NCBI RefSeq assembly: GCF_036417845.1
Contig: NC_090014.1
Span: 712,895 to 776,894, forward strand
Source of the DNA: Apteryx mantelli
Lineage: Eukaryota; Chordata; Aves; Apterygiformes; Apterygidae
Reading direction: 5' to 3'
DNA length: 64,000 nt
The first letter of the stretch is position 1. Every line of letters begins with the position of its first letter. A program made the position numbers and the translations under genes. The notes below the pieces were generated by a model that worked only from the letters and a program-made list of their open reading frames with translations, searched no databases and had not been told where the DNA came from. Shown here piece by piece: positions 12,081-43,061 of the stretch.

Positions 12081-12535
12081 TGGGGGCGGGGCTGCGGTGG
12101 CGCCGGTACCGGCGGGCTGGGGGCGGGGGGCCGGTTGCCCATGGGGTGGTCTGTTTGGGGGGGGGGGTTGTCCCGTAGGCCCGGGGGTGAGCGGGGGGGG
12201 GGGGGGGCTCTGGCGGCGCGGCCTGGCCGGCGGTTCGGTGGGGGCGGAGGGCAGGGCCCTGTTGGGGGTTTTGGGGAGGGGATCTGGGGGGGTGGAGGGG
12301 TTTGGGGGGGTCCATAGGGCCTATGGGGCAGGGAGCGCGGGGGGTTTGGGGTCAGTACCCCAGTACAAGCGGTGCTGTGGGGGGGCCGGGCCCCCGCTCG
12401 TCGCAGGGCTGCGTTTTGGGAGCCGGGGGGTGGAGGGGGGGGCCGGGGGGTGGGGGGTTACGGCGGCACTGCCGCCCCCCCCCCCCCCACAAAGCACCCC
12501 CAACCCGCCCCCCTGCCGGCGCAGGCTTGACCAAG

Positions 12536-15500
12536 ATGGTGAAGCTGTTCATCGGGAACCTGCCGCGGGAGGCGACGGAGCAGGAGATCCGCTCGCTCTT
12601 CGAGCAGTACGGCAAGGTGCTGGAGTGCGACATCATCAAGAACTACGGCTTCGTGCACATCGAGGACAAGACGGCGGCCGAAGACGCCATCCGCAACCTG
12701 CACCACCACAAGCTGCACGGCGTCTGCATCAACGTGGAGGCCAGCAAGAACAAGAGCAAGGCCTCCACCAAGCTGCACGTGGGCAACATCAGCCCCACCT
12801 GCACCAACCTGGAGCTGCGGGCCAAGTTCGAGGAGTACGGCCCCGTCATCGAGTGCGACATCGTCAAGGACTATGCCTTTGTGCACATGGAGCGGGCGGA
12901 GGACGCGGTGGAGGCCATCCGCGGCCTGGACAACACTGAGTTCCAAGGTGAAACGTGAACCGGGGCCGCTGCAGCCTTTGCCGGGAGTAGGTAGCGCCAG
13001 GCTGTGCCCCGAGGAAGCGGGTCAGGCGTAAATCCGCCGGGAGCAGGGCCGGGGCAGAGCACCTGCCTTCGGACGCAGCCTCATCTTTGAGCGGGTTCGC
13101 TTCGGGGCTGTGCCCCCAGGGTGCAAATTTGCCGGGGAGGCCAGGGAACGGGAGGAATCCCGGTTTTCTATTCTAGGTAAACACTTCCAGTCCTTTTGGG
13201 CTTAGGCTGAGGCCTTTGAAGAGCTTTGGGAGCATCTTCGTCCCTGATCAGCTCCTTGGGAAGAGGCAGGGCTCCGGGCAGGATGCCGGCACTCCCGGCT
13301 GGGGAGCAGGGAAGGGGGAAGATCAAACCTTATTTCTGCGAGTGCTTAAAACCGCAGGCTGCTAAAGGGGAGCCCTTCCGCGAGCCGTTGAAGGCGGCCT
13401 GCCAGGCGGGCCGGGGGCCTGGCCTGCCTTTCCTCTGCGCTTGAATTAAGTGCAAATGTTTTTTTTCCCCGTATTGCAGCTCTGCTTGTGCCCCGCAGCA
13501 CCGATGTGGCGCACCCGTTTCTTTCACAAGCCAAGACGAGCAGGTTAGGTCCTAACCGTGGTGGCTGTTTTCCTTTCCATAAGGAAGGTGCTAGGAGACT
13601 GGGCGCTCTTCCTCCTCCTCCTTCTCCCTTTCCATCTCTTGATGCACATTTCCAGGCCTTCGCCTGACTCTTGACGACCTGAGACGGGCGACGGGACAAG
13701 CAGCGCGTTACGGGCTGAGGGATCCCGCGGCTTTGCCGCATGTTGCCTTCCCTGTGCCAACGCTCTGCTGTTAGCACAGATTTCCTTAGCCAGCGATCTC
13801 TTCTCCTTAGCCAGTGTCTGGGTCTCTTCTGTAGCCGACAAGCTAATTCAGCAGCTCGGTAGAGCGTCCGGATTTCTACACGTAGCAAGAATTGGCTTCT
13901 TTATCAGTTGAGCTTTGGCCCCAAGCAGACAGTCGCACCCTGCTCGGCTGCAGCGGTGAAAAGCCGCCTTCTTCCCAGTGCAGCGAGGTCGGGCACCGTC
14001 GCAGGACGTGGGTGCGGGGTGGCCTTCCCCTCCGGAGGGGGTTTGTCCCCTCCGCCTCGCAAACACCGGCCTCATCTGGGTTAGCGGGCGAGACGTCAGG
14101 TTGGCGCGGGACCCGTGGAGCAGGCGGGACCCGCTGGCGCCCGGGTTCTCCCTTTGGAAGGGCTCTTTTCCCAGCAGCTCTCTTCTCTTCTCGTGCCACG
14201 CTCAAGGCGCCTTCGGCAGGCGGATTCCTGCCCGAGCCTGGCCTGCTCTGGGGCAGTTGTCAGACATGGCGTGTTCCTCCGAGCGGCAGCGCGCTGGCAG
14301 TGTTTCTGCTGTGCCGAGCATGGTGCAAGGACCGGAACGAAGTTTGCAGCCAGCGAAGCCGCGGAGGCCATTCAGAGCGTAGGGAAAGGGCTCGCTAGTG
14401 AGCTGGCTAATAAGCTAGTAGACTGGGCTGAGTGCTCCCGCAGCGTGGCTGAAATGCCAGAGCGGGACTCCGCGCTCCCTTTACGCCCTGTGAAGAGCGG
14501 ACTGTCGCCACGCAGCTTTGGCTGGAGGACAGGACAGTCGGGGGCTCACGCGGTGACTCCGACCCGGCGCCGAGCCCGCTCCGAGCAGCCGGCCCAGGGC
14601 CGCAGGCCGGCAGAGCCCGTCCCAGGGCTGCCGGCACGGGGAGCGCGCAGGTCTTGCGGGCGGTTGCACCCTGCGCCGCAGCCCCGTCCCCGCCGCCGTG
14701 CTTCCTGGTAAGTGGGTTTGCTCTTTGCCGGAACGCGGCTCCGCCTCGAGCCGGGAGCGGTCTGCTCGCGCGTTCCTCCCGCGCCAGCGCCGGCTTCCTT
14801 TCCCAGCGGTAATTTCTAGCGTTGCAGAAAGCGAGGAGCTCTCAGTGTGGATTTCAGCCGGCTGCTGGGGGGAAATGCAGTCGGCTCTGTCCTCATGTTT
14901 GAATTATTGTGCTCTGTTTTTATAACGAATGTTTTGGTGTGGCCTCAGTTAATTATAGCAACCCTTCTTGCGTCTGTTTCTTAAAGGCAAGCGGATGCGC
15001 GTGCAGTTGTCCACGAGTCGGCTCAGGACCGCGCCCGGGATGGGAGACAAGAGCGGCTGCTACCGGTGCGGGAAGGAAGGGCACTGGTCTAAAGAGTGTC
15101 CGGTAGATCGCCCGGGGCAAGTGGCTGACTTTACCGAGGCCTATAATGAGCAGTACGGAGCGGTGCGCACTCCCTACCCCGCGGGCTATGGGGAGACCAT
15201 GTATTACGATGACGGGTATGGCGGAATGGTCGACTACTACAAGCGCTACCGCGTGAGGTCCTATGCGACGGCCTCTGCATACGACGCCTATGCAGAGCAG
15301 ACCATGGCCCAGTACTCGCAGTACGCGCAGTACTCCCAAGTGCAGTCCACGGCCATGGCCGCCACCACAGCCATGGCCAGTCGCATCCCCACCACCCTAG
15401 ACCCGTACGATAGAGCTCTGCTGCCGACCCCGGGAGCGGCAGCCGCCGTGGCCGCCGCCGCCACCGCGGCCGCGGCGGCCGCCTCCTCCACCTATTACAC

Positions 15501-15678
15501 CCGGGATAGAAGCCCCCTGCGCCGCACGGCAGCCGCGGCCACCACCGTCGGAGAGGCGTACACTTACGATCGTAGTCAGCTGTCGCCGGTCTCGTCGGTC
15601 GCTCGGGCCTCCCTCTACGACATGCAGCGGTTCGGGCGCGACGCATACGCGGACAGGGCGCGGTACTCTGCCTTTTGA
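12536..15678 (+). CDS. RBM4B: RNA-binding motif protein 4 family, copy A (next to SPTBN2)
   Basis: Regulator of alternative splicing and translation. Coding exons are 12536-12947 and 14987-15678, giving 367 residues (human RBM4 is about 364). Two RRMs fill the first exon: RNP2-like KLFIGNL at the start and KLHVGNI near residue 79, with RNP1-like NYGFVHI and DYAFVHM. The second exon has the CCHC zinc knuckle [14 protein letters not shown], Tyr/Ala-rich segments, a poly-Ala tract near 15430-15490, the RDRSPLRR motif, and the end DRARYSAF. The start ATG lies 11 nt into its exon, as in the family. The stop is followed directly by a donor (gag|gtgag), so the 3' UTR is in another exon. The position beside SPTBN2 in the same orientation matches human RBM4B, and segments such as [10 protein letters not shown] look RBM4B-like, but naming is uncertain because copy B is nearly identical. 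Confidence 0.93.
12948..14986 (+). other. Intron 2 of RBM4 copy A
   Basis: About 2 kb of non-repetitive sequence. The first 80 bp or so and the last 50 bp match the intron of copy B, while the middle does not. Read-through gives Gly-Glu-Thr and then a stop at 12957. No exon or RNA gene was recognised inside. Confidence 0.6.
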
Positions 15679-16165
15679 GTCGGAGGTGAGAGCGTGCTCA
15701 GGTGCAGTTCGCGGGCGCTTGTCCGTTTTCCTGGGGCCGGTGCGTTGCAACAGGCTCTGTGCGCGGGGCTGTGTGGGGCTCCGTGGCGATGAGCGCCGGG
15801 AGCAAGCGCCCTACGCGCGCTAAGCCCGGATACGCTGGTCGAGCATCTAAGCTGTGACTCCTGCTCGGAGCCGAGACGAAGGTAAAGGCCCCGACCTAGG
15901 ACGGGCCCCTTCCGAGGCCGGGAGCAGGTGTTAACCGCAGACGCCGGGCGCTGAGTTCACGAACACCGGGGAGTTTCCACGCTCTCCGCCGGGCGAGCGG
16001 GTGCCTCGCTCACGCGGCGGCGGCGCTCCTTGCTTTCAGGAAGCCGGGCGGACTCCTGGGGGGGCACGCGCCCTCCGCGCGCGGGAGCCCGGGGCACGGC
16101 CCGCGCTCTTGCAGGGTGGACGCTCGTCTCCAGGCCTCTGAACCGACTGTGCTTTTCTCTTTCAG

Positions 16166-16845
16166 GTAAGATTATTTGCGGCTGGACGTCGGGTTCCTGT
16201 TGCACGTGAAATCCGTATCACGCGTGTCAAACTGTGCCGGGCTTCAAAGCAAACCTATTGCAGCTAATGAATTTGTTCCTAATGGACACTTCAGCTTCTT
16301 CATAGTCTAGCGAGGAGTAACTTAACTTCCCCCCTTTTTTATTTTTTTATATTTTTTCAGGAATTGCTTTGAATTAGTTTTGTGGCCTGTGTTTCTCTGG
16401 CAGCAGCCCTTCCCTCACCCGACTGCCCTTCTTCCTTGCTGCTTCCTAGCCCCAGGCCGCCCCTAGCTGGTCTAGGCTCAGGTTTTGCGCTAGCGTAGCC
16501 ACAGTACGAGCTTCGCTTCTCTGCTTCCCCTTTGGAGTCGCGCTTGGAGCTGCTCTCTTCCTCCGCAGTTTGCTCTGTAGCTTCCCCTTCTTTTATTTTA
16601 TTTTTTTTAAAGAACGTGTTTATTTTTTAAAGGGTGAATAATCAGTCTTAACTTTTTAATACTAAATAATGTAGCTTACTTGATACCGCTAAGCACTGCT
16701 CCCTTGCGCCCAGCCTGCGTCGCACCATCCGCGCGGAAAAGATGACATTATGTTCGGAACGTAACCTGTGATTCTCCTCTCTGAAGCTGAGCGTCGCTTG
16801 AGCGCTCTTTCCAGTAAAATAAACTCTCCAACAGCTACGAATTGG
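16166..16845 (+). other. Probable 3' UTR exon of RBM4 copy A
   Basis: The acceptor 'gcttttctctttcag' ends at 16165. The sequence then becomes AT-rich and ends at AATAAA (16818-16823), followed by T/G-rich sequence. The RBM4 family is known to carry its 3' UTR in a separate exon. The exact 3' end is inferred. Confidence 0.6.
16818..16823 (+). terminator. Polyadenylation signal of RBM4 copy A
   Basis: AATAAA in 'ccagtaaaataaactctcc', followed by a 'ttggtgtctgtgtgggtg' GT-rich element. Further AATAAA motifs near 17046 and 17204 could be alternatives. Confidence 0.65.
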
Positions 16846-16849
16846 TGTC

Positions 16850-20540: not shown

Positions 20541-20547
20541 CCAGCAT

Positions 20548-21368: not shown

Positions 21369-24300
21369 CTACAGGCGGCGCTGGTAACTAGAATGCATCC
21401 GCGCCGTATGCATATAATCGCCATAGCCGCCCGAGTAGCGGGCGTAATCGGAATGTGCTTCTGGAAGACGGCGATAATCCATCGGGGACTTTGTCGGCGA
21501 ACGACGGTACGCGAGCGGCGAGTCTGCTAAACGACGGTAATCTGAGAGGTCAGATAAACGGCGATCAGAATTGTACCTGGTCGAGAAAAGAGACATTTCA
21601 TGAATAAAACGAAGGGGTTAGGAGAACAGCCTCACGCCCCGGCCGGGGAAGGCGCGTACACCGGGGAGATCCCTCGGAAGGCGAGATCAGCGTCCTGCCA
21701 TCCGGGCAGGAGGGCGCCCAGAATCCTGAAACGGGCGGCGGGGAGACAGCTCATCAGCGCCCGTCTCGCCGCAGCAGCGCGCGGCTTGATCGTGTCTGCT
21801 CAGAGCAGCTCAAGCCGTTGCCTGGTCTCAGGCAGGCGAGTTCTGCTGTTTTTAAGCCTCCCTCGGTGGCCGCAGGAAGCGCTCGTTGCGTGAACAAAGC
21901 CAATTTCCCCCCAATTCTTGGACAACCAAGCAGCGTGCGGGAAAGCAAGCTCCCAGCAGGCCTGCGGTTTTCCGGGAACGCCACAGCCCGTTTACGGGGC
22001 GAGGGGAGAACGGGGCTGTCGGAGCGCGGGGATCAGGATTCTGGGCACTGCGTCGCTAGGCCTCCGCGTCACATCCAGCGCGGGGCGGCAGCAGCGGTCG
22101 CGCCCGGCCCCCCCGCGAGCGCACGCCTACGGCTCTGCCCCGCCACCAGCACCGCTGACCGTTGCGTCCTTCGTCATCTCAGCGGAAACGCCAACATCAA
22201 AAGAGACGCAGCAGCCGAACCCCCCCCTTCCCTCCCGGAACGCGGGGCCAAGGGAACGTTTCCAGCCCCCCCCGGACAGCCCGCCCCAAGCCTCTCGCGC
22301 ACGGCTGTCAGAAGGAAGCCCCGCACGCATCCAGCGCAACCTGCGGATCTGGGAAAAAAAAAGGGGGGGGGTGATCCCAGCCCCGCGCTCGCTCCTTCCC
22401 CCAGACGGACACACCGTCGTGCTTTCGCACGGAAGCGGAGGGCTGGGGGTTACGCGAGGGTCTGCGGCCGACGGGAGCGGCAGGCCACTCTGTCAACTCA
22501 CTGGCGTATTACGTGAGTAACGCCCGCACTCCCCCCCGCAGCGCTCCAGAGCGACACGAGTTTAGTGTGTTAGCAGGACACGTTCCACTCTGCTGCGAAC
22601 CGGAACCGAGTTTATATCAAGGTGGAGACTTGCACCGCGTCCGGAGCCTCGAGTCCCCTCGACAGCGCGTCGGGATCCTCGGCTAAGAGGCGCTACGTGC
22701 ACGTTACCATCCCTGGCCTAGTTCCATACCTTTTAGCCAGAGCAGTAGATTTTTTGTAAGGATCGTCATAGCCAGCGCTCCGGGGCGGGGAGAGGCGGGT
22801 GCGCTCGTACGGCGGGGCGACAGCGGCGGCGGCAGTCTGAGAGATTCCCAAATAGGAGGCCGCCTGTTGCCCCAGCTGGCTTGGCCCGTCGTACGCGGTG
22901 CCCGGCTGAGCTCGGTAGGCGGCTGCCAAGGAAGCGGAGGAGGGCTGCTGCGCTGCGTACGACGCTGCCATCGAGTTCGAGGCCTGCGCTCTGTAGGCCG
23001 CGGCGAGCGGGGCGGAGGCCTGCGCTTTGTAGGAGGCCGCCGCAGCCTGGTTGTTGTAGGAGGCGGCCAGCGAGGAGGCGGCCTGGGCGCCGTAGGTGGC
23101 GGAGAGGGCAGCCGCAGACTGGGTGCCGTAAGAGCCAGGCAGATTGGCCGCGGGCTGGGCGCCGTAGGAGGCCGAGTGGCCGGCTGCGGGCTGGGCACCG
23201 TAGGAGGCCGAGAGCGCGGCCGCGGGCTGGGCACCGTAGGAGGCCGAGTGGCCGGCCATGGGCTGGCCGCCGTAGGAGGCCGCGTGGCCCGCCACGGCCT
23301 GGGCTCCGTAGGAGGCGGCATGCGCGGCCACGGGCTGGGCTCCGTAGGAGGCCGAGAGCGCGGCTCCGGGCTGGGCTCCGTAGGAGGCCGCGTGGCCTTC
23401 TACGGGCTGGGCGCCGTAGGAGGCCGCGTGGCCCGCTGTGGCCTGGGCGCCGTAGGAGGCCACGTGCGTGGCCACGGACTGGGCGCCGTAGGAGGCCGCA
23501 GGGCCTGCGGCAGGCTGGGCTCCGTAAGCAGCGGCGTGCGCGGCCGAGGCCTGGGCTCCGTAGGAGGCCGAGTAGCCGGTGGCGGCCTGGGCGCCGTAGG
23601 AGGAGGCCAGGGCTGCGGACTGGACTCCATAGCCGGAGAGCTGGGAAGCCGCCGGCTGGGCGTTGTAGGAGGCCGCGGCCTGGGCGCCGTAGGAGGCGAG
23701 CGAGTTGGCCGCGGGCTGCGCGCCGGACGCTCCCAGGGAGACGGACGACTGGGCTCGGTAGGCGTTCCCCAGCGAGGCGGAGGGCTGGGCGCGGTAGGAG
23801 GCCGCCTGGCCGGTGGTCGGCTGCGGGCGGTAAGCCATGCCGAGGGAGGCCGAGGGCTGCGCGCGGTAGGCGGCTCCCAGGGAGGCGGAGGGCTGCGCGC
23901 GGTAGGCGGCTGGCTGCGCCGTCATGGGGAGCGTCACCGTCGAGTAGGCGGCCCGCGAGGGCGATCGCCGGAGCGGGCTCCTGTCCCTCCCGAAGTAGGA
24001 GGGGGAGGCGGGCCTCGCCTGGGCGTCGAAGGAGTCGTATTTGTTGGCGCTGTTGCCGCCGAAGCGCTGCTGGTAATCGTACAGCGAGGAGGTGGCGTAT
24101 CCCGCGGCGGCCGAGGGGAAGGTCGAGTCCGCAGCCCTCCGCTGGTCAAAACCGTCTATCTTGGGCTGGAATTTCTCCCTATACTCCAGACCTATCCTCT
24201 TGTTCTTGTCAACAATGATGCCTGCCTGGATAGTCTGGGCTGCTCCCTTTTTCTGAACGTTAGTAGAGAGTTCCACATTGACTCTTCTTCCTTTCACTTC

Positions 24301-30082: not shown

Positions 30083-30114
30083 GGCGGCGAGCGGGAACGC
30101 GGCACCGCGGCGCC

Positions 30115-30470
30115 CTCACAAAATGGCGACGGCACCGCCTCAGCGCGGAGGGGAGCGGCGGCCGCGCACTGCGCCTGCGCGCCGCCCGCCCCGCCCACCG
30201 CGCGCGCCGCCCCCCCACGGCGCCTGCGCGCCGCCCGCCCCCCCGCCCCCGCCGCGCCTGCGCGCCGCCCGCCCGCCTCACTGCGCCGGCGCGGGACCCT
30301 CCCGCCGGCTCCACTGCGCCTGCGCGCCCCTTCGCCCCGCCCCCTCCCCTCGCGCTCCCGCGGCGCTTAGCAACGCCCCCATCACCCGCCCTCCCCCCCA
30401 CCACCACCTCCACCAAGGCGCGTAACGGTCCTAACGGCCGCCCCGCGGCAGCGCGCATGCGCCAGCGCCC
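30115..30470 (-). promoter_or_regulatory. RBM14 promoter CpG island with YY1- and NRF1-type motifs
   Basis: On the - strand, CGCCATTTTGTGAGG lies just upstream of the RBM14 start (about 30115-30130), a YY1-type element. Between 30168 and 30330 'actgcgcctgcgcgcc' recurs several times, and a perfect NRF1-like palindrome GCGCATGCGC is at 30453-30462. A further 'ccattttgtgg' on the - strand lies near 30480. The binding factors are inferred from consensus. Confidence 0.6.
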
Positions 30471-30708: not shown

Positions 30709-32769
30709 CTAGAGGTGTGGGGCCGGCTGCCCCGGGGGCCGCTCCCGGTCCCGCTCGTCCCAGAGCGTCAGCCCGTCGCAGGTGCAGATGCGCTTGGGGT
30801 TCTCGAAGAGCCCGGCCGCCCGGGCCACCACGCCGCAGGCCAGCCTGCGGGGGGGGGAACGGGTGAGCAGCGCCCGCCCCACGGCCGCCCCTTCCCCGCT
30901 GCCGCCCCTCACCTACCTGGGCCCCGAGTTGCCCGTGAGCCCGGAGAGCGGGTGCGAGCCCCGGCCCAGGTCGTCCTCGCCCGCGTCCACCACCACCGAG
31001 CGCCCGATGATGTCCCAGACCTGGGGGCAGAGGCGGCGCCGAGGGGCTCAGCGCCCTCCATGGGGCCCGCACCCGCCCCGCGGCCCCCCCCCCCGCGGCC
31101 CCCTGGCCCCGTCCCGAAGTCCCCCAGCCTCACCTTCAGGCGCGAGTCCTCCAGGCGGAAGGCGGCTCTGCCCATGGCGTCGGCCCAGATGTTGCCCAGG
31201 TCCCCGACGTGCTGCAGGGGGTGGTGGTGGGGGGGGTCACGGCCACGGCCACGGCTCCGTAGGGGGGTCACAGCCATGTCCCCATCCCCACGGGTGGCGG
31301 GGGGGGTCAGGGACATGTCCCCGTCCCCATGGGGGAGTCATGACCATGTCCCCATCCCCACGGGTGGCAGGGGGGGTCACGGCGATGTCCCCATCCCCAT
31401 GGGGGGGTCAAGGACATGTCCCCATCCCCGTGGATGGCGGGGGGGGTCAGGGCCATGTCCCCATCCCCATGGAGGGGGTCACAGCCATGTCCCCGTCCCC
31501 ACGGTTGGCAGGGGGGGTCAGAGTCATGTCCCCGCTGCCCCCCGGGGCCCAACTCACCCGGTGCTCATCCTGGGGTCCGCCGTGGCGCTCCCCGTCGGGG
31601 TTGAAATGGTCCCCGCAGCTGTCGGGAAGAGGGGGGGACGGGACACGGTGTGGGGGGGTAGAGGCGCGCCCCGGACGCCCGGGCCCCCCCCATTACCTGT
31701 CGCAGGCGTCAGAGAGGTCGCCGAACTCGTGGACGTGGAGCCCGTGGGGCCCCGGCTGGAGCCCATCAACGGTTCCCTCCACCAGGCAGCGCTCGGGGGA
31801 GACCTGCACGAAGCGCAGCAGCCCCCGCACCGCCCCGGGGCCCCGCAGCGCCGCCACCGCCGCCGCCACCGCTGGGCCCTGGCGTCCGGGGCTGCTGGGG
31901 CCGCCCATGCCCCGCAGCACCGCCCGGCGCCCCGAGGCCTCCAGCTGCTCCCGCACCTGCTCAGCCGCTACGCTGGCCTCCACCAGCACCGTCTGCGAGT
32001 CCAGGCGGACGTCGAGCACCCGCACGCCTGCCAGAGAGCGGAGGTGGCGGCGGGGGGACGGGGATGGGGACAAGACAGGATGGGGATGCAGACAGGACAG
32101 GGATAGGGAAAGGGACAGGACAAGGTACAGGGATGGGGATGGTCCAGGGATGGGGATGAGGATGGGATGGGGACAGGGACGGGAATGGAGATGGGGACAG
32201 GGATGGGGACAGGGACAGCGCTCACCTGCCAGCCCCTGCAGCGCCTCCCGCACAGCCTCCACGCAGCTCTCGCAGGTCATCTGCACCGAGAACTCCAGCT
32301 GCGAGAGGGGACGCGGGTGAGACAGGCAGGGGCTGCGCCCCGAAACCCCACAGGTGGGGGGCTGCACCCCAAACCCCCCCAGCATGGAGCCCTGCACCCC
32401 CAAAATCCCTCTGCAAGGATCCCTGCACCCCCTAACGCCCCTGCACGGGGTCCTGCACCCCCAAACCCCCCTGCATGGAGCCCTGCACCCCCAAAACCCC
32501 CCTGCATGGAGCCCTGCACCCCCAAAATCCCTCTTCAAGGATCCCTGCACCCCCCAAATCCCCCTGCATGAAGAACCGCACCCCCAAACCCCCCTGCATG
32601 GAGCCCCGCATCCCCAACTCCCCCCCTGAACGGGGCCCTGCGCTCCCAACTCCCCCCCTGAACGGGGCCCTGCGCCCCCAGCCCCCGTTCCGACCCCCTC
32701 CCCGTGCCCGCCGCGGCCCGCGGCGCCCCTCACCCGGCAGCTGGTCGCGGCCGGGCCCGGCTCCGCCAT
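30709..32769 (-). CDS. CCS: Copper chaperone for superoxide dismutase (CCS)
   Basis: Delivers copper to SOD1 and forms its disulfide. Seven exons on the - strand: 32769-32734, 32298-32226, 32027-31697, 31618-31558, 31211-31134, 31020-30917 and 30844-30709. They total 819 nt (272 residues; human 274), with all introns GT/AG and in frame. Domain 1 carries the copper motif MTCESC (exon 2). Domain 2 is SOD-like, with HVHEFGDL, CGDHFNPDG, HGGPQDEH and HVGDLGNI, and the VVVDAGEDDLGRG loop; the equivalent of SOD1 His120 is Asp, as in other CCS proteins. Domain 3 keeps the CxC copper site (CTCDGLTLWDERD). All metal-transfer motifs are intact. It shares a divergent promoter region with CCDC87, as in human. 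Confidence 0.95.
31212..31557 (-). repeat. Minisatellite in CCS intron 4
   Basis: Units of about 45-60 bp with 'catgtccccatcccca' and 'gggggggtca' fill the intron between exons 4 and 5. Confidence 0.8.
32041..32225 (-). repeat. Simple repeat in CCS intron 2
   Basis: Irregular 'ggggatggggacagggac' units on the + strand, close in composition to the repeats in ZNRD2 and EHBP1L1 introns. Confidence 0.75.
32340..32690 (-). repeat. Minisatellite in CCS intron 1
   Basis: About eleven units of 30-32 bp built on 'ccctgcatggagccctgcac' with 'ccccaaaacccc'. It occupies most of the intron after the 12-codon first exon. Confidence 0.85.
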
Positions 32770-33457
32770 GGCCGCGGCCTTCTCCCCCGGCGCGCACCCC
32801 GGAACCGCTGCGCGAGGCCTCACGGCGCGGCCGGACTCCCGCGGCGACGGACCGGAAGCGCCGCCACACGGCTGCCGTACCGCCCCAGGCCACTTCCGGC
32901 GTGCCGTCGCCATGGAAACGGCGGGGCGCCGCCGGGGCCGGGGCGTGCGGGGCTTGGTGCGGGGGGGCCCATTGACAGGGGATTTGGGGGGATTCGGGGG
33001 GTTTTCGGGGTCCTGAGGGGGTTGGGGGTCTTGAGGGAGCGTTTGGGGGCTAGTTTGGGGAGGTTTCAAGGGTATTTTGAGGGTATTGGGGGTCTTGAGG
33101 GGGTTGGGAGATTTGGGGGAGCATTTAGGAGGTTTGGGGGTCTCGAGGGAGTGTTTTTGGGGGGTGTTTGGGGGTCCTGAGGGGGTGTTTTGGGGGGTGC
33201 TTGGGGGTATTTGGGGGTCTCGAGGGGGTTGAGCGATTTGGGGGAGTATTCAGGTGGTTCAGGGGTCTTGAGGGGGTGTTTGGGGGCGTTGCAAAGGGGG
33301 GGCAGGGGTGGATCTGGGAGCCCTGATTTAAGGGGGAGATTCAGGGGTGCCCGTTGCGGAGGGGGGGGGAGTTGAGGGCCCCCATTGCGAGGGTGATTTT
33401 GGGGCGGTTCAGGACAATTCGGGGCGTTCCGCTCCAGGCCCCGCCGCCGGCCCAGCC
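32770..33457. promoter_or_regulatory. Divergent promoter region between CCS and CCDC87
   Basis: The two start codons are 688 bp apart, head-to-head. The CCS side (32770-32960) is a CpG-rich island with 'acttccgg' ETS-like sequence near 32890. From about 32980 to 33400 there is a G/T minisatellite with units like 'ttgggggtcttgaggggg'. A shared promoter is inferred from the arrangement. Confidence 0.55.
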
Positions 33458-35809
33458 ATGGCCCAGGCCTCCGGGGCCGAGGCGGCGGGAGGAGGCACCC
33501 GGCGGCCGGAGGAGCCCGGCTGCCCCGGCCCCACGTCGCTGCCAGCGCTGACCCCGCTGCTGGAGCAGCACCTGGCACCAGCCCGGCAGCCCGAGGAGCC
33601 GCGCGTCCGGCGGGCGTTCTGGGAGATCATTCTGGCCGCCACCACACGCGCCTGGGAGGCGGCCAGTGGCAACCCGCACGACCCGGCCCGCGGCGGGGAG
33701 ATTCGCCAGCGCTTGCTGTCCTACCTGGTGCTGGCGTCCGAGTGGCTCTTCCTGCACTACCTGCGGCTCATGAGGAGCAGCCGGAGAAGGGGCATCTTCT
33801 CCGAGCAGGCCAACCTCACCCGCTTCTGCGCCCAGCTGGCCCTCGACTGCGCTGCCTACTTTGACGTGGCTGCCGTCCGGCGCCAGCTCGTCGCGGAGAT
33901 GAGATCCCCTGTGGCCCGCGGCCTCCAGAGTTCCAAGAGCGGCCGCGGGGCCGCGCGGGGCTGCCGGCTCGGCGTCACCGTTGGCCACCTGCTCCGGCTC
34001 ACGCGGCCGCCGGCCCCCTCCTCCCAGGAGAAGCTCGCGATGGACATCAGGGAGCTGGAGAGCATCCCGTCCCCAGACCTCAGCCGCGTCCCCCGCTGGC
34101 TTTCCGGCGGGAGGACGCGCTTCCCGCTGTCTGCCCTCCGGGAGCTGCGCTGCGAGGCGATCCGCACTCCCTGCCCGCAGCCCTCCGGCACCGACAGCCG
34201 CCCCGGTGCCGAGTGGCCCAAGGCCGGTTCCCGTTCATTGCCGGACCTGAGAGAGGGGCGACGGCTCCTGGATGAGCTGGGGCTGCCCCGGCCCCCTCGG
34301 CGCCTCTCCCCGGTGGTGCTGGCTCGCAGCAGGGAGCCAGAAGAGGCCAGGAGCCGCCCGGCCGCCCTGGCCGTGGCGGAGGATCTGCGCCGGCTGACGC
34401 AGCGGGCGGCCGGGCGGGAGCTGAGCGAGGACCCACGACTGCCGCCCCTCCTTGCCGTGCTCACGCGCCGCAGCTGGGACGACGCTCGGCTCCGGCGCCT
34501 CCGGGAGCAGCTCCGGCAGGAGGAGCTGGCCCCGACGCTGCAGCCCATGTGCCCACGGCCCCCCGCCATGCCGTGGCCCGGCCCAAGAGCGAAGGTGGCC
34601 ACACTGCAGGTGCCCGTCCGGGCCTTCATGGACGCGGTGACGCTGCGGGGCTTCCCGCCGCTGTGCAGCGACCTCCTGGGGGACCCACACGCGGCCTTGG
34701 CGGACGCCCTGGATGCCGGGCTCTGCCCGGGGAGGGAGGTGCGGGAGGTCTACGCGGAGCTGGCAAAGAACCTCCCCAGCGAGCGGCTGCGCTTCGACCG
34801 CGAGCCCCTGGTGCAGCCCTCGGCCACGGACCAGGATCTCTGCCGCAGCTCGACCTCGGCGACGCTGCCCGAGGCGCGGCGGGAGCTGGTGATCAACGCC
34901 GAGCTGAGCAAAACGCTGCCGGTGGCGCAGCGCAGCTCCGAGGCGCCCACTGCCCCCGCGCTGGCCCCCAGGAACGTGCCCTGGAAGCAGAGAGGCTCCT
35001 GGCACCGGTGGTGGAAAACCGCCTTCGGCTTCGACGACTACCTGAAGTTCGTCTCCACCACGGAGACCGACTACCTGCACGTGATATTCCACCTGTGCAG
35101 CCGAGCCGGCGAGGAGGAGGAGGAGGAGCTGGCGGTCTGCCGGGAGCAGGAGCAGAGGGAGAGGGAGCCGACGCCGCAGGCAGCGGAGCAGCGAGCCCCG
35201 CGGGGCGGCTCCGGCGCGGAGCGCTTCGTGCCGGGGCTGTGGAAACCGGAGGAGCCGGGGCCGCCCGAGGAGACGAGGGCGCTGCAGAAGCGCCTGGAGC
35301 GGCTCTGGGCCGTGCTGCACGTCTCCGGCCGGGAGAAGCTCGCCATGGCCGTCAAGTACAGCTGCGGCGCGGGCTACGCGCGCCTCCCCGCCGCGCTGGA
35401 CGCCTGGGAGGCGGCCGCCAGCCGCATCCAGGAGCGCGAGCTCCTGCTGGCTCGCCTGGAGGCGCTGGAAGAAAACGCCTCCGACCCCAACCGCTTCTTT
35501 GAGAGGAAGCCGGGATCTGGCCGGAGCCGGGCCGGGGAGGCGCGGGCCAGGAGGCGCCTGCACGCCGCCATCGCCCGCCGCGACACCGCGCTCTCCGCTG
35601 CCCTGTGGACGATCGGGGCCACGTTCGGCGACACGGTGACCTTCAAGGGCCGCCCCTACCTGGAGAAGATGCGCTGGGACAAGGTGGAGATGCTCTACTG
35701 GCTGCAGCAGCGGCGCCGCGCCGGGCTGCTGGGTGCCGAGCAGGCGGGGGGGCTTCCTCCGCTGGGCGGCCGGGCGCCCGCCGGCCTAGCGGGAGGCTCC
35801 CGGCGCTAA
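33458..35809 (+). CDS. CCDC87: Coiled-coil domain-containing protein 87 (CCDC87), intronless
   Basis: Testis/sperm-associated protein of poorly known mechanism. A single uninterrupted exon of 784 codons including the stop (783 residues; human about 849). The start at 33458 (gccATGg context) is chosen because upstream in-frame sequence is repeat-derived. Family landmarks are FWEIILAATTRAWE near residue 50, LLSYLVLASEWLFLHYL near 90, 'SLPDLREGRRLLDELGLP' near 260, KTAFGFDDYLKFVSTTETD near 520, NRFFERKPG near 680, and the strongly conserved VTFKGRPYLEKM and WDKVEMLYWLQQ near the C-terminus. The intronless structure and head-to-head position with CCS match the mammalian gene. Predicted charged helical segments lie in the C-terminal third. 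Confidence 0.93.
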   Translation: MAQASGAEAAGGGTRRPEEPGCPGPTSLPALTPLLEQHLAPARQPEEPRVRRAFWEIILAATTRAWEAASGNPHDPARGGEIRQRLLSYLVLASEWLFLHYLRLMRSSRRRGIFSEQANLTRFCAQLALDCAAYFDVAAVRRQLVAEMRSPVARGLQSSKSGRGAARGCRLGVTVGHLLRLTRPPAPSSQEKLAMDIRELESIPSPDLSRVPRWLSGGRTRFPLSALRELRCEAIRTPCPQPSGTDSRPGAEWPKAGSRSLPDLREGRRLLDELGLPRPPRRLSPVVLARSREPEEARSRPAALAVAEDLRRLTQRAAGRELSEDPRLPPLLAVLTRRSWDDARLRRLREQLRQEELAPTLQPMCPRPPAMPWPGPRAKVATLQVPVRAFMDAVTLRGFPPLCSDLLGDPHAALADALDAGLCPGREVREVYAELAKNLPSERLRFDREPLVQPSATDQDLCRSSTSATLPEARRELVINAELSKTLPVAQRSSEAPTAPALAPRNVPWKQRGSWHRWWKTAFGFDDYLKFVSTTETDYLHVIFHLCSRAGEEEEEELAVCREQEQREREPTPQAAEQRAPRGGSGAERFVPGLWKPEEPGPPEETRALQKRLERLWAVLHVSGREKLAMAVKYSCGAGYARLPAALDAWEAAASRIQERELLLARLEALEENASDPNRFFERKPGSGRSRAGEARARRRLHAAIARRDTALSAALWTIGATFGDTVTFKGRPYLEKMRWDKVEMLYWLQQRRRAGLLGAEQAGGLPPLGGRAPAGLAGGSRR

Positions 35810-35873: not shown

Positions 35874-35987
35874 GCCGCGGGAGAGGGATGGCGCAGGGGT
35901 TTCCCTGCTGGGGTGACCCGGCAGCCCTGAGCGCACTTCCCGCTCCCGTCCCAGCAGCAGCCCAGATGCCTCTACTAGAAAAATATG

Positions 35988-35993
35988 TTTATT
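35988..35993 (-). terminator. Polyadenylation signal of the HARBI1-like gene
   Basis: TTTATT on + in 'aaatatgtttatttttccc' reads AATAAA on -, about 455 bp past the stop at 36449. Confidence 0.6.
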
Positions 35994-36448
35994 TTTCCCC
36001 TCCGGAAAAAAGGGAGTGCCCCGCTCTGCCCCGGAGCGATGTCACCAAGGCGGAACGGGCACCGTATCCGCTGCCGGCGCCACGAAGGGAACGTCGCCGG
36101 CTCCTCCCTGCCCCGCTGCCCCAGGTCCCCCCGAGCGTCGGAGGCGTCTTGCTGCCGCTCGCCCCGTCTCCGTCTCCGTCTCCATCTTGGGGGAGCAGGA
36201 CGCGGCTCCTGGCGGCAGCGAGGAGGGGGGGGATCCGCCCGGGGATCCCGCTCCGTCCGCCGTGCGCCTCCCGTCCCGCGAGGCCCCGGGGCTCCGCTCC
36301 CCGGCGGCCGAGGGGGTGAGCCGAGCGCAGCCCCCTTCCTGCCCCTCGGTCACTAACCTACGGCGGGGTGTGGGGGGAAGGAATCGGGTTTCCCGGGTCC
36401 GGGAGCCCCCCCGGCGTGCCGGGAGGGGCGCGGGGAGGCGCGGCGGCT

Positions 36449-37917
36449 CTAGGCGAGGCTGTCCTTGACCTGCTGCACGATGCGCGCCCTCACGGCCCGC
36501 GCCTCGCTGGAGATCTGCACGTAGGGAGTCTGTACGGGCAGCTCGGGCTCGGGCTCGGCACCGTCGGGCGGCTCGGCACCCTCGGGCAGCTCCAGGGGCA
36601 TGCGGCGGCTGAGGGCGATGTTGTGCAGGATGCAGCAGGCCAGGAAGATCTGGCAGACCTTCTGCGGCGTGTACTGCAGCGAGCCGCTGGCCTTGTCCAG
36701 GCAGCGGAAGCGCATCTTGAGCAGGGCGCAGGTCTGGCGCAGCGCCGCCAGCGCCTCGTGGTGCAGGGCGTTGTAGCGCTCCTCCGCCGGGCTGCACGGG
36801 AACAGGATGGGGGTCATCAGCCACGTCTTCAGCGGGTAACTCCGGTCTCCTGGCGAGAGGGGAGGGAGAAGGGAGGCGTGAGCGGCCACGTCCCCGCGCC
36901 GCCGCCGCCCTCCGTCCCTCCCGCCGCCTCTGGAAGCGCTAAAACCCTCCCGGGAGATTAACGCCGCTCCCAGCGCTCGTGCCGCAGGGAAGCGGCGTTT
37001 GCTCCGTGTTTATCCTCCCCTCGGGCGCCCGCGGCTCCGGGAATGCCGGCCCCGCGCATCCCGATCGCCCCGCGGGTCTCCCCGTCCCATCCCGTCCCGC
37101 TGTGGCTGGGCGGCCGGGCTCGAGCGGGATCGAGGCGCCGCTCTGAGTCGGCTCTGCCAAGAGGCCCGCGCGGACGGAGCTGCCAGCGCCCTGGCTCACC
37201 CAGCAGCCAGGCGCCGTCAAGCCGGGCGCCGTCGAGCAGCCGGGCCAGGGCCGAGTTCTCCAGCACGGCGGCGTTGGGGCAGGAGCCGGGGTACTTGGCC
37301 ACCACGTTGGTGATGGTGCCGCGGGCGTCGCACACCACCTGCATGTTCATGGAGTGGTAGTTGCGGGCGTTGCGGTAGGCCAGCTCGTTCTCGGAGGGCG
37401 CCCGCAGCGCCACGTGCATGCTGCCCAGCAGCCCCAGCACGCCGGGGAAGGGCCCCGCCGGCGGCCCCGGCGCCCGGCCCGGTGCGGGGAAGGCGATGTA
37501 GCGCGCCGCCCGCCGCTGCAGCGCCTCCAGGAACTGTGCCAGGCAGTTGGACATGGCGGACTGGCTGATGCCGGTGGTGTCGCGCGTGGCCGTCTGGAAG
37601 GAGCCCGAGGCCAGGAAGGTGAGGGCGGAGGTGACCTTGACGGCCACGGGCAGCGCGTGGCTGCGGCCCGTGAGGCTCTCCAGGTCGGAGCCCAGCTCGC
37701 TGCAGAGCCCGGCGATGGCGGCCTTGTCGAGGCGGTAGCGCCGCAGCACCTGCTCCTCGCTGAGGTCCAGGAAGGAGCTGCGGGCCCGGTACACCCGGTG
37801 CTCGGGGTAGAAGCGCCGGCGGCGGCCCCGCTTCCGCCGCGCCCCGGCCGCCGCTGCCGCCGCCGCCTCGCTGCTCCGCTCCCGCACCCGCCGCAGCAGC
37901 AGCACCGAGTCTGACAT
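36449..37917 (-). CDS. HARBI1-like protein (domesticated Harbinger transposase, DDE sites lost)
   Basis: Two exons on the - strand, 37917-37200 and 36849-36449, joined in frame (W-L-L-G|D-R-S-Y). They give 372 residues (human HARBI1 about 349). Landmarks shared with HARBI1: GSFQTATRDTTGISQSAMS, HVALRAP, NYHSMN, VVCDARGT, YPGSCPNAAVL, TWLMTPIL, RFRCLD, LQYTPQKVCQIFLACCILHN. Alignment by eye to HARBI1 puts Gly where the first catalytic Asp should be (LLGSMHV vs VVDCIHV), Asn at the second (SCPNAAVL vs SLQDCAVL) and Arg at the Glu (ALRQTCALL vs VIEKTFRTL). The fold seems kept but nuclease activity is unlikely. A basic N-terminus (RRKRGRRRR) suggests nuclear entry. The intact frame, intron and polyA signal argue for a functional host gene. 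Confidence 0.82.
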
Positions 37918-37974
37918 GGCCCCGCGCCTGCGGCCGGGAGGGAGGGAGGGCGTCAGGGCGCGGGGGGACGCGGC

Positions 37975-38170
37975 CGACGGGGGCTGGGGGGGGCAGGAGA
38001 GGGGCAGGCTGGGGGTCGAGGGCTGATCGGGGCAGGATAGGGGCAAGATGGGGGGCAGGAATGGGGCAGGGGGGCAGGCTGGGGGTCAGGGGCTGCACAG
38101 GGGCAGGATGGGGGTCGAGGGGGCAGGAGGGGGGCAAGATGGGGGGCAGGATGGGGGCTGGGAGAGGCAG
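37975..38170. repeat. G-rich repeat upstream of the HARBI1-like gene
   Basis: Units of about 20-25 bp with 'ggggcaggatgggggtcgag' variants, followed by CpG-rich unique sequence up to the RBM4 copy B promoter. Confidence 0.7.
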
Positions 38171-38629
38171 TGGGACAAAAGGGGGACACTGGGGAGGGCG
38201 TGGCTAAGGCGGGGGCGTGGCTAAGACGAGGGGGTGTGGCCAGGCCGCTCCAGGCGAGGCAGCTCCAGGCCCGGCAGGGGCGGAACCCTCAGGGTGGGGG
38301 GGGCGTGACCCAAATTGGGGGCGTGGCCGCCCCGGTGGCAGTGAAGGGCGGGTTCGTCCCGGGGTGGGGGCGGGGCTCCCCGATGGGGGCAACTCCAGGC
38401 CCGGAGGAGGCGGGGCTGCCGGTGAGGGCGGGGCTCCGGGAGGGGCGGGGCTCCCGGTGCCGGTGAGGGGCGGGTCTCGCCGCGGTCCTGGCGGGGCGGG
38501 GCGGGGCGGGGCTGTTCCCCCCCTCCCCGCTCCCCTCCCTCCGCCCCCGGCACCGACCCGGCTCCGCCGCTCGCGCCGCTCCGACCCCGCCGGGCTCCGC
38601 GGCGCCGCCAGGCCCCGCCCCCTCGCCCC

Positions 38630-38971
38630 CGCCCCGATTGGCCGCCGCCGCCCTCACGTGACCGGAACCTCCCCCTCCCTCCGGCCTCCGCGCTCCACAT
38701 CCGGGTCGCCGCGCGGCGCGATTGGCCGCCGGGCGCGCGCGCCTCGTCCCTGACGTCAGCCCGCGCGCGCGCGCGGGCGCGGGCCCGGCGTCGCCCCGCG
38801 GCGGCTTGGCCAATCGCGCCGCGGCGCCCGGGAAGCGGCAGCCAATCAGCGGGCGCGGCGCCGCGCGCGGGGCGGGGCGCCGCGGAGGGGAGGGGGAGCC
38901 GCGGGGTGGAGCCGCCGCCGCCGCCATTTTGTCGCCGTCACCCGTCCCGGCGCGAGCGGAGGAGACGTTGT
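38630..38971 (+). promoter_or_regulatory. CpG-island promoter and noncoding first exon of RBM4 copy B
   Basis: Contains a perfect CRE palindrome TGACGTCA (38751-38758) and four CCAAT/ATTGG boxes (near 38637, 38721, 38810 and 38842). There is an alternating CG run near 38761-38775 and a YY1-type CCGCCGCCATTTTG (about 38917-38931). The first exon probably ends at the donor 'gttgtggtgagc' near 38971. There is no TATA box. Factor assignments rest on motif match only. Confidence 0.6.
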
Positions 38972-39387
38972 GGTGAGCGGCCGCCTCCCCCCCCCGGCCC
39001 TGCGCGGGCGCGGCGGCCTCCCGGGGCCTCCCCTCTTCTCCCTTCGCCGCCGGGCCGCCCCCGGGCGCCGGGGCCTCGGTCTCCGCCTCGTGGCGGCGGC
39101 CCTCAGGCCTCTGGGCCCTCCCCCGCCGCGGCCCGGCCCGCGCGACGGCCCCGAGCGGCGGCTTCCCCCGCCGGGCGGCCCGGCCCAGCCCCCTGTTAGT
39201 CGCAATAGAGGCCCCGCGGGGCGGATGGGGCCCTTCCTCGGCCCCCGGGGCTGCTTGAGGTGTCCGGGGCCTGGCGTGGGGCCCGGCGGTGCCGGGGAAG
39301 GGGCTCTGCCCGGGGACGGGAGCCACCGCGGCGCGTCCTGGTGTCCCCGTGACCGATTCTCTCTTCCCCGGCGCAGGCTTGGCCGAG

Positions 39388-42300
39388 ATGGTGAAGCTGT
39401 TCATCGGGAACCTGCCGCGGGAGGCGACGGAGCAGGAGATCCGCTCGCTCTTCGAGCAGTACGGCAAGGTGCTGGAGTGCGACATCATCAAGAACTACGG
39501 CTTCGTGCACATCGAGGACAAGACGGCGGCCGAAGACGCCATCCGCAACCTGCACCACCACAAGCTGCACGGCGTCTGCATCAACGTGGAGGCCAGCAAG
39601 AACAAGAGCAAGGCCTCCACCAAGCTGCACGTGGGCAACATCAGCCCCACCTGCACCAACCTGGAGCTGCGAGCCAAGTTCGAGGAGTACGGCCCCGTCA
39701 TCGAGTGCGACATCGTCAAGGACTATGCCTTTGTGCACATGGAGCGGGCGGAGGACGCGGTGGAGGCCATCCGTGGCCTGGACAACACCGAGTTCCAAGG
39801 TGAAACATGAACCGGGGCCGCTGCGGCCTTCGCTAGGAGTAGGTAGCGCCAGGCTGTGCCCCGAGGAAGCAGGTCAGGTAGGAGAGCAGGGTGCCGAGGC
39901 CGTCTCTGAGCGTGGGGAGGGGCTGCTCGAGGTGGGAGCTCTGGCTCCAGCGTAGCTCTCGCCTGCTGCCTGTGCTAGCTGCACCCTGCAGTAGGGAGCT
40001 CCCTGAGCACGCCTGTGGCGTGGCCCAATCCGCTGCGCGTTGCCTCCTCCAGGGCCTTGTGCCGTCACCTGCCCCTCGGGCAGCTGCATTCGGATCCCTC
40101 TGGGATCTGCTCAGCCCCTACCCAGGCAGCGAGGGGCTGCCCCTCCCCAGAAGGCAGGGAGACGAGGAAACCCGGGCCCTGGGGCTACCCACAGCGTTGC
40201 CGAGCTCCGCAGCTCCCGGCAGTCGTGTGCCCGCCGAGCTAGCGCAGACCGTCCCGGAGACATCCCAGGGGGAGACAGCAGGCAGGCGCAGAGGGGTGCG
40301 GGCGATGGGTCGCCGGAGCAGTGCCCTCGGCCTGGTCCTGGCCACTGCTCCGGTCCGTGGGGCTGGTCCAGCTAAGGGCAGCTTGGCAGGGGGGGGGGTT
40401 GCGGGGCCCCTCGGGGTTCTGGAGCCAGAAGCTGGAGGTGTTTGTGGCCTTTTCTCCTTCCCCAGTCGCACGCGTGGCGAGGTTCAGTTCCTGGCCTCGT
40501 CCTGCTGGAGGGAGAGAGGGTAATAGCAGAAAAAAGTCACTTTTCCTGAGTTTCCTGCACCAAACAAGCAGCCACGTGGATTCAGAGACAACCTCTACCT
40601 GTCCTTAGGTGCCCCACCTCTCTTCCGGCTGGGATCAAACACTGGCCACGTAAAAAATTGGCTTGCACTTCCCATGCCGTCTGTAACAGCCTGGTCCCGT
40701 GAGGCTTCTCTGCGCGCAGAGATGCCCGAGCCGCGCGGATGGTGGTCCGCTGCCCGTGGCCAAAGCCGGCTTCAGTGGCCGGAGAGGGGTGCAGGCGCGG
40801 GAGGGAGGCAGGATGGGAGCCGCGGTGGGGAGGGGTGTCGCTCCGAAACAGCGCTCCAGCTCCGGGGGAAGGAGTTACGCCCCCAGCTCCTAGGTAAGAG
40901 CAAGGCTGTCAGCGCCAAGAGCCGGGACCTGAAATCCGCTGGTCAAACGCAAGCGCTTTCCCTGGAAACGTGCAGGGGAAATAGTTCCCTTGGGCTTTGT
41001 GGCACAGCCAGGACCCCGGGGTCTGGACGGAGCTGCGGGGGCTTCCTCCTCCTCCTGGCCTCGAGCCAGGTCCGCGCGCTCCCCTGCTGCGAACGGGTTT
41101 CAGAGGAAAATCCGGGCGGATGCACTTTGGGCCGCCAGCCCGGGGGTGTCTCGGGGAGCGCAAGGAGCAGGGCGCTTCCCCGCGCGCGGCAGGGCAGGGC
41201 TTCCCCAGGTCTGGGGTCTCCGGGAAGCGCAGCGTGGCCTTCCCTCCGCGGCCGAGCGCGGATGCCAAGCCGTGACAGCTCCGGCCTTAGCGGTCCCGTT
41301 AGGAAGAGCCTCGAAAGCAGCGGCGTAAGCGCCCTGTAGCCGGGGAAGCCGTGCGGAGCCGGCACGCGCTTGTCTGCTTCTGCCCCTCCAAGCTGGACTC
41401 GCGTGAGCGAAGCAGAACCCCAAGAGAAGCTGTGTCCGTGTAGCTCCTTGTCCTGCTTCCCTCCCGGAGCAGAGCTGCCGTAAACGGCTGCCTGCCAGGG
41501 CTCCCCTGGCCCCTCCTCAGCTCCTGCAGCCCCGGCTCTGCTCCGGGACCTTCCTCACAGCCTGCTCTCCCTCTTCTTCCCCCCCATTGCTGTCCGCATC
41601 CCTGCGGAGCCCGGCTGCCCTTCCCCGCGTCCGCGTGGCCCTGACCCGGCACCGCTATCCGGGGCCGTGGTGAGAGGCGGCTGCGCTCCCTGGGGAGCCG
41701 GGAGGCTCCCGCGCGGCAGCGCAGCTGGCGGCTCTTCCCTCTAAACCCTTCCGCTTCCCCGGCTCGTGGCCAGGCTCTCCCCATCGAGGTCTGGCGTGGG
41801 AAGCCCCGGGAAGTTGCCATCGGTGTCTGAGCGAGGCAGATGAGCCCGACTGGTCCCATGACCCCTGCGGGAAGCGGAACGGGCTGGTTTTATTCACTCC
41901 CTTCCCAAGAACCTTTTTCAGACGCTGTTTCCCAGGCCGGCACGTATCCAGGGGCAGAGCTCGGCTTCACGCCGGCTCCGGGTCCAGCTCCGCGTCCCCT
42001 TGCAGGTTGCGAGCGGCGCAGGGCGTCTGATTGCGCTGCCTGGCTGCAAACGCGGGCGGTATCCAGAGCCTCCGTCCCTCGTGGGCTGTCCGGGGCCGCC
42101 CGGCTCCGCCGGAGTGCGGGAGCCGCTGGCGCAGGTTTGGGCCCGGAGGCTGAGCGGGCGCGCGGCGGCGAGCCGGGGGCCGCTCGGGCCCTGGCAGCGC
42201 CGCGCGGAGGAGCGGCACAGGGCGGCCGCCAGTCGGGCCGCCCTGGCCCCCGCAGGGGCGGCAGCTTCGGCTCTCGCTCGTCTGTGCTTCTCTTGCCTTC

Positions 42301-43045
42301 CCTTTGTGGCCTCGGTTAATTATAGCAACCCTTCTTGCGTCTGTTTCTTAAAGGCAAGCGGATGCGCGTGCAGTTGTCCACGAGTCGGCTCAGGACCGCG
42401 CCCGGGATGGGAGACAAGAGCGGCTGCTACCGGTGCGGGAAGGAAGGGCACTGGTCTAAAGAGTGTCCGGTAGATCGCCCGGGGCAAGTGGCTGACTTTA
42501 CCGAGGCCTATAATGAGCAGTACGGAGCGGTGCGCACTCCCTACCCCGCGGGCTATGGGGAGACCATGTATTACGATGACGGGTATGGCGGAATGGTCGA
42601 CTACTACAAGCGCTACCGCGTGAGGTCCTATGCGACGGCCTCTGCATACGACGCCTATGCAGAGCAGACCATGGCCCAGTACTCGCAGTACGCGCAGTAC
42701 TCCCAAGTGCAGTCCACGGCCATGGCCGCCACCACAGCCATGGCCAGTCGCATCCCCACCACCCTAGACCCGTACGATAGAGCTCTGCTGCCGACCCCGG
42801 GAGCGGCAGCCGCCGTGGCCGCCGCCGCCACCGCGGCCGCGGCGGCCGCCTCCTCCACCTATTACACCCGGGATAGAAGCCCCCTGCGCCGCACGGCAGC
42901 CGCGGCCACCACCGTCGGAGAGGCGTACACTTACGATCGTAGTCAGCTGTCGCCGGTCTCGTCGGTCGCTCGGGCCTCCCTCTACGACATGCAGCGGTTC
43001 GAGCGGGACCCGTACGCGGACAGGGCGCGGTACTCTGCGTTTTGA
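39388..43045 (+). CDS. RBM4: RNA-binding motif protein 4 family, copy B (next to ZNRD2)
   Basis: Coding exons 39388-39799 and 42354-43045, giving 367 residues with the same two RRMs, CCHC knuckle, poly-Ala tract and DRARYSAF end as the gene at 12536. The first coding exon encodes exactly the same residues as copy A. The second differs only near the end ([10 protein letters not shown] here, [10 protein letters not shown] there). At DNA level I count three differences in the 412-nt exon and about six in a 757-bp block around the other exon, with no indels. Most of intron 2 and the promoter are unrelated to copy A. The stop is again followed by gag|gtgag, so the 3' UTR is in another exon. Human has no RBM4 gene at this position (between a HARBI1-like gene and ZNRD2), so the symbol is a family label, not proven orthology. 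Confidence 0.92.
39800..42353 (+). other. Intron 2 of RBM4 copy B
   Basis: Apart from the first 80 bp and last 50 bp it does not resemble the matching intron of copy A. GC-rich and non-repetitive. As in copy A, read-through meets a stop after Gly-Glu-Thr (39809). No internal exon was recognised. Confidence 0.6.
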
Positions 43046-43061
43046 GTCGGAGGTGAGAGCG

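Follow-up and report, generated by a model that had tools for sequence, protein, structure and literature searches.

The 64,000-nucleotide stretch of Apteryx mantelli DNA analysed here (the window; NCBI RefSeq assembly GCF_036417845.1, contig NC_090014.1, positions 712,895 to 776,894 of the forward strand) contains two complete RBM4 genes, A and B, on the plus strand, separated by about 27 kb. In copy A, exon 2 (12525-12947) carries the ATG at 12536 and both RRMs, found as Pfam RRM_1 in two stretches, and exon 3 (14987-15685) encodes the zinc knuckle (Pfam zf-CCHC) and an Ala-rich tail that ends in a TGA at 15676-15678; its splice donor reads GGAG in the exon and GTGAGAG in the intron. The corresponding exons of copy B lie at 39377-39799, with the ATG at 39388, and at 42354-43052, with the stop codon ending at 43045. 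The coding exons, 423 and 699 bp long, give a complete reading frame of 367 amino acids in both copies, and intron 2 is of the GT-AG type in both.

Both translations contain two RRMs, a zinc knuckle, Ala runs, and a TRDRSP site. The RBM4-family domains, two RRM_1 and one zf-CCHC, were identified by Pfam in copy A, from which copy B differs by only two residues near the C-terminus, and the best PDB matches of the protein are named RNA-binding protein 30 and 4B. A C-terminal Ala-rich tract has been described for mammals and chicken and an RD/ERSP site for all vertebrates (PMC3602429); both copies have the two features. All comparisons were made within a single genome, represented by one assembly (1.50 Gb searched), in which a third RBM4 did not turn up in six-frame searches that used the proteins encoded by the two copy-A exons. 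The exon 3 protein gave two matches among 117 scored candidates, and the exon 2 protein gave five among 51, of which the third is RBM14 and the last two are weak. Among viral contigs, 21 stretches matched the exon 3 pattern, and none of them is a relative.

The similarity between the two genes is confined to two tracts. Tract 1 (12516-13026 in copy A, 39368-39878 in copy B; 511 bp) takes in exon 2 and reaches 9 bp into intron 1 and 79 bp into intron 2. Tract 2 (14938-15695 and 42305-43062; 758 bp) takes in exon 3 and reaches 49 bp into intron 2 and 10 bp into intron 3. Neither contains an indel, and they differ at 11 of 511 and 6 of 758 bases, respectively, 17 positions in all. An earlier note on this DNA had described a 757-bp block with about six differences, and exactly six mismatches were counted in an ungapped comparison. 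The smaller block of the note, 516 bp, is also a real match, but it holds 16 mismatches, five of them on an unmatched rim, and was trimmed to tract 1. The near base-for-base agreement that the note had seen at synonymous sites and in the Ala codons was confirmed most clearly in exon 3, whose first 648 bp (14987-15634), Ala codons included, are identical. Within this core none of the 131 four-fold degenerate sites differs (95% upper bound 2.3%), nor does any of its 73 CpGs, which are normally mutable. All five exon 3 differences fall within 15635-15672, 38 bp near the stop codon, and the three coding differences of exon 2 are at 12820, 12922, and 12937. The coding sequence as a whole has 8 differences in 1104 bases; they affect seven codons, five of them synonymously and two with a replacement (G354E and A357P), and four-fold sites differ at 5 of 192. 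The intron flanks inside the tracts differ at 7 of 147 sites, six of which are in the 79-bp stretch.

Outside the tracts the resemblance is lost abruptly. As the note had proposed, the two loci were aligned and identity was plotted along them: in 25-bp windows it falls from 84-100% inside the tracts to about 0.1-0.4 outside, the background being reached within about 25 bp. Strict local alignment of copy A with copy B gave scores within the range of shuffled sequence for intron 2 outside the tracts (1878 x 2393 bp; score reached by 14 of 200 shuffles), for the 2 kb upstream (12 of 200), and for the 2.5 kb downstream (25 of 200). The strict version replaced an earlier alignment with permissive gaps, in which matches ran across most of each region, z-scores were -0.02, -0.79, and -0.20 for the three homologous comparisons, and as high as 2.35 for one of the two mismatched pairs used as controls. 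Gapped extension at the four tract edges gave scores reached by 14, 4, 40, and 1 of 40 shuffles, and permissive gapped BLAST adds weakly matching extensions of 34 and 21 bp to the tracts. An upstream match of 61% identity (9260-9675 and 38498-38921) was not counted as homology, as it is GC-rich and matches other places in both orientations. The claim that the rest of the introns, the promoters, and the 3' untranslated regions do not match was therefore borne out by scores in the shuffle range, except that the intron ends (9, 79, 49, and 10 bp) and a short match at the poly(A) site are shared. Folding of the four conserved intron flanks gave no support for a structured element (z-scores of 0.60, -0.51, 1.13, and 0.73). 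Each paralogous tract is far more similar than its flanks, the right edge of tract 2 being borderline, as conversion predicts, and introns and flanks are not as similar as the exons, as they would be after a recent duplication.

The portions of intron 2 that lie outside the tracts (13027-14937 in copy A, 39879-42304 in copy B; plus strand) are repeat-poor, are without detectable similarity to each other, and each have one match in the genome when searched with 13030-14930 and 39885-42300, respectively. In both copies intron 2 has the appearance of normal unique sequence after divergence. A trace of common ancestry was found beyond the exons at the poly(A) signals, where the regions at 16808-16834 (AATAAA at 16818) and 44670-44697 (AATAAA at 44680), both on the plus strand, still resemble each other: 10 of 11 anchored positions in the flanks of the AATAAA match. 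No other of the 21 AATAAA pairs in the window does as well, the runner-up having 4 of 11. Because this shared trace is located outside the exons, it suggests that the pair arose by duplication of the whole gene long ago rather than as a mosaic or by transposition of exons only. The motif GCCGCCATTTTGT is present about 0.5 kb upstream of exon 2 in both genes (12039 and 38920), these being its only two exact copies on the plus strand of the window; it is given little weight because YY1-like start-site motifs are common.

The differences inside the tracts are not randomly placed, but leave long identical runs and cluster toward the edges, as would be expected of conversion. The longest identical run is 286 bp in tract 1 (P 0.00125) and 687 bp in tract 2, where it was reached in 0 of 20,000 random placements, coding and intron sites being mixed in both cases. 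The five differing four-fold sites are closer to the tract edges than expected (95.6 versus 190.6 bp, P 0.008). At the end of exon 3, two of six four-fold sites differ, whereas all 131 in the core agree (Fisher P 0.0016, the region having been picked after seeing the data). Divergence in the exon 3 core is likewise lower than in the intron flanks (0/131 four-fold sites versus 7/147 sites, P 0.016) and lower than at the four-fold sites of exon 2 (0/131 versus 3/55, P 0.025, the regions again picked afterwards). A homogenized core with eroding edges can thus be read clearly from exon 3 and less clearly from exon 2, and the sequences suggest that homogenization of exon 2 is older, whereas that of exon 3 is probably more recent.

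We consider it probable, on the evidence of the sequences, that homology-limited interlocus gene conversion has acted between old RBM4 duplicates, with each exon converted separately at least once. Separate events are indicated because the unrelated intron 2 cannot pair, and a single tract that crossed it would have carried the intron along. The proposal of exon-restricted gene conversion in the earlier note is supported as far as conversion is concerned; it is not strictly limited to exons, as the tracts run 9-79 bp into the introns. Because the similarity crosses the splice junctions in this manner, the template was probably genomic DNA rather than spliced RNA. The direction of the exon 3 transfer may be read from base composition. 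The 49-bp flank of exon 3 is AT-rich in both copies (GC of 0.41 and 0.43); beyond it, copy A stays AT-rich (0.32 in the next 50 bp and 0.47 in the next 100 bp), whereas copy B is GC-rich (0.64 and 0.74), which suggests a transfer from A to B with copy A as the donor. Outside the identical core, E354 of copy B agrees with the human residue, and G354 of copy A is likely derived. Somewhat less than an even chance is given to the broader proposal that the pair predates the bird radiation and has been homogenized exon by exon ever since, leaving two independently evolving sets of promoters and untranslated regions for one protein.

How such a pattern might have come about can be outlined as follows. 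After the whole RBM4 gene was duplicated long ago, the introns, promoters, and untranslated regions would have diverged past recognition, while the two long coding exons stayed alike enough to pair. Interlocus gene conversion could then have copied the exon of one gene over that of the other, exon by exon. Purifying selection on the exons would presumably hold homology above the pairing threshold, and conversion would remove exon differences as they arise, while the introns, open to insertions and deletions, would drop out of pairing. The outcome would be nearly one protein from two genes with unrelated promoters and untranslated regions. If the pair does predate the bird radiation, coding exons above the minimum pairing length may represent isolated islands of conversion on a dot chromosome, with the other sequence drifting. 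Pairing is stated in a part of PMC3924837 to require highly similar sequence, typically of a few hundred nucleotides, a length that each of the RBM4 coding exons reaches. Part of PMC3966223 adds that conversion is usually reported for exons, since introns diverge faster.

Several observations weigh against this interpretation. The same portion of PMC3966223 cites mouse data on unlinked sequences, where ectopic conversion needed an identical stretch of 2.5 kb and was already much reduced at 1.2 kb; the RBM4 exons are shorter, though the copies are linked at 27 kb. When all four-fold sites are taken together, divergence in the exons is not significantly lower than in the intron flanks (5/192 versus 7/147, P 0.38), and exon 2 by itself is like the flanks (3/55 versus 7/147, P 1.0), so that it is exon 3 that carries the argument for a recent event. 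The flanks of 79 and 49 bp could have been conserved by selection instead of converted. The right edge of tract 2 is possibly less sharp than the others, given that only 1 of 40 shuffles reached its extension score. The donor is read from base composition at one boundary only. The downstream regions as a whole have no significant similarity, and only the comparison anchored on the poly(A) signal shows any. The comparison contains the two copies of one genome and no bird orthologues. Finally, intron 1 is less repeat-poor than intron 2, with tandem-repeat (TRF) coverage of 0.26 in copy A and 0.16 in copy B and a self-BLAST coverage of 0, the start of the intron being estimated.

These values for intron 1 bear on a serious rival, namely a recent duplication of the whole gene followed by rapid rewriting of introns and untranslated regions through the 'sequence stuttering' of bird dot chromosomes. 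The window is dot-chromosome-like, with a GC content of 68.8%, dense tandem repeats, and an exon-end copy inside an intron of a ZNRD2-like gene. Part of PMC12954441 describes dot-chromosome genes whose exons are intact but whose introns have undergone massive repeat growth that is judged to be recent, and gives medians of repeat coverage that span 7-93%; intron 1 of both copies falls inside this range. The stretches downstream of the two copies have a tandem-repeat coverage of 9% and 10%. The rival is weakened by intron 2, in which TRF coverage is 0.05 (A) and 0.01 (B), self-BLAST is 0, and no exon copies are present; as positive controls, four repeat-flagged stretches of the window gave tandem-repeat coverage of 0.55-0.94. 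Stuttering would have to erase about 2 kb of homology and leave unique sequence behind, while 131 four-fold sites of exon 3 stayed unchanged. If the duplication were young enough for none of these sites to have changed, the introns should be expected to be nearly identical. Moreover, a clock-like duplication predicts evenly spaced differences rather than clustering at the edges. With introns that cannot be aligned next to a perfect exon 3 core, differences near the tract ends, and a single-copy, repeat-poor intron 2, we agree with the earlier note in disfavouring a recent whole-gene duplication, and consider it improbable even when stuttering is invoked.

It may also be argued that no conversion took place and that extreme nucleotide constraint, synonymous sites included, has kept the exons of two old duplicates alike. 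The RRM exon fits such an explanation, as its protein matches the human one at 97-98%, and the intron flanks are also similar, being no more diverged than the four-fold sites of exon 2. However, it is exon 3 that comes closest to perfect identity, and its protein part matches human RBM4 and RBM4B at only 71-74%. Part of PMC3602429 calls the C-terminal sequence of RBM4 divergent. Because this protein tail diverges between species, constraint by itself does little to explain exon 3; it also sits badly with the unchanged CpGs of the core and with the way differences suddenly appear over 38 bp near the end of the exon, and we regard it as very improbable. Just as improbable is an assembly artefact in which the exons of one copy were filled or polished from the other. 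Although genes of such a kind are reported, in part of PMC12954441, to evade standard sequencing, the 17 tract differences include two amino-acid changes, each copy is bordered, on a single contig, by unique introns of its own, and blocks of 0.5-0.8 kb are short relative to long reads. Conversion templated by spliced RNA or complementary DNA instead of genomic DNA would account for tracts that have exons at their centre and leave most of the intron sequence untouched, but the similarity extends over all four splice junctions, an objection that is valid only if the flanks belonged to the tracts; this appears to be the least probable of the explanations considered.

Coding-limited concerted evolution is already known, and the RBM4 pair is a new place for a known kind of event. 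The closest parallels are the yeast whole-genome duplicates treated in part of PMC3924837, in which coding sequence is homogenized by conversion, noncoding homology is hard to detect, and purifying selection is invoked; in contrast to these, RBM4 is a vertebrate gene with large introns and two exon islands that were converted separately. The hsp modules and the col-12/col-13 pair of Caenorhabditis elegans, as presented in part of PMC3966223, likewise have near-identical gene bodies, diverged flanks, and conversion after an older duplication. However, the homogenized stretch of col-12/col-13 includes the intron, whereas the RBM4 introns of 2-2.5 kb are spared except at their ends. The human red and green opsin genes, also covered in part of PMC3924837, are linked about 24 kb apart and have exchanged tracts whose limits are set by selection, but they are the reverse of RBM4 in that homogenization affects the introns and leaves part of exon 5 distinct. 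The mammalian RBM4a and RBM4b described in part of PMC3602429 are same-chromosome duplicates whose proteins are similar and whose untranslated regions are for the most part divergent. The two copies studied here differ at 2 of 230 residues in the exon 3 part, unlike the human pair, which differs there by about 14%.

No report of gene conversion or concerted evolution of RBM4/RBM4B was found in the searchable literature, most subscription papers being outside its scope, and a search for exon-limited conversion returned nothing in the same literature. RBM4 and RBM14 are not mentioned in the main text of PMC12954441. As a vertebrate case, the pair is a clean one: the tracts can be read directly, and two exons surround a nonhomologous intron, so at least two events are required. 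In birds, RBM4 trees or dates based on exons may confuse long-standing paralogues with recent ones or fuse them into one. According to part of PMC3602429, the chicken RBM4 sequence used there was put together from two partial records, and these might be two genes. It is further predicted that duplicates with long coding exons show exon-limited identity more often than those with short ones.

In the window, the genes follow the order spectrin gene, RBM4 copy A, RBM14 (-), CCS (-), a CCDC87-like open reading frame (ORF), a HARBI1-like ORF (-), RBM4 copy B, and a ZNRD2-like gene; the statement that the copies are about 27 kb apart with other genes between them therefore holds. The spectrin gene is presumably SPTBN2, judging by synteny. 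RBM14 occupies 22980-30115 on the minus strand (left limit approximate), with its first coding exon in the ORF at 29414-30115 and the rest of RRM2 in an ORF read from 24417 downwards; a tandem repeat of 36/108 bp at about 23056-23911 in this region, on the minus strand, is probably coding. CCS (30900-33249, minus strand, limits approximate) has HMA and Cu/Zn-SOD domains. The CCDC87-like gene is a single long ORF (33332-35806, plus strand) with only a sub-threshold MAP65 match in Pfam, and the name is one that we assume from sequence and gene order. Between it and RBM4 copy B lies a DDE ORF (36452-37009, minus strand; Pfam DDE_Tnp_4, E 4.4e-12), which we take to be HARBI1-like; it holds only part of the DDE domain, and the gene may have more exons. 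Compared with the human order, copy A is in the place of RBM4B beside SPTBN2, and copy B, which lies beyond CCDC87 and not beside RBM14, is without a positional counterpart.

The ZNRD2-like (autoantigen p27) gene lies downstream of copy B, at about 45170-46750 on the plus strand. Since human ZNRD2 lies about 1 Mb away on 11q13, copy B may be near a synteny break. In this gene an exon end with its splice donor is present twice, at 45487-45525 and 45636-45674, 149 bp apart, the second being inside the presumed next intron, which resembles the 'exon stuttering' of chicken dot chromosomes described in part of PMC12954441. Tandem-repeat arrays are found between and within genes at 2592-3212, 7764-8325, 31223-31533, 32362-32680, 46840-48106, 49078-49768, and 50276-50897, and they resemble the 'stuttering' introns of bird dot chromosomes. 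An exon-like ORF at 54966-55442 (plus strand) has no Pfam match, and a tRNA of unknown type with a four-base anticodon, called by ARAGORN at 56392-56486 (plus strand), is inside a tandem repeat and is probably spurious. Once engineered fused chains are set aside, the alpha-A globin of the genome has its best PDB matches in the single chains 3a59, 1faw, 3eok, and 1a4f, which are bird hemoglobins, in line with a bird as the source. Elsewhere in the genome, three alpha-type globin genes stand in a row (C16:3118236-3126395), as they do in the avian alpha cluster.

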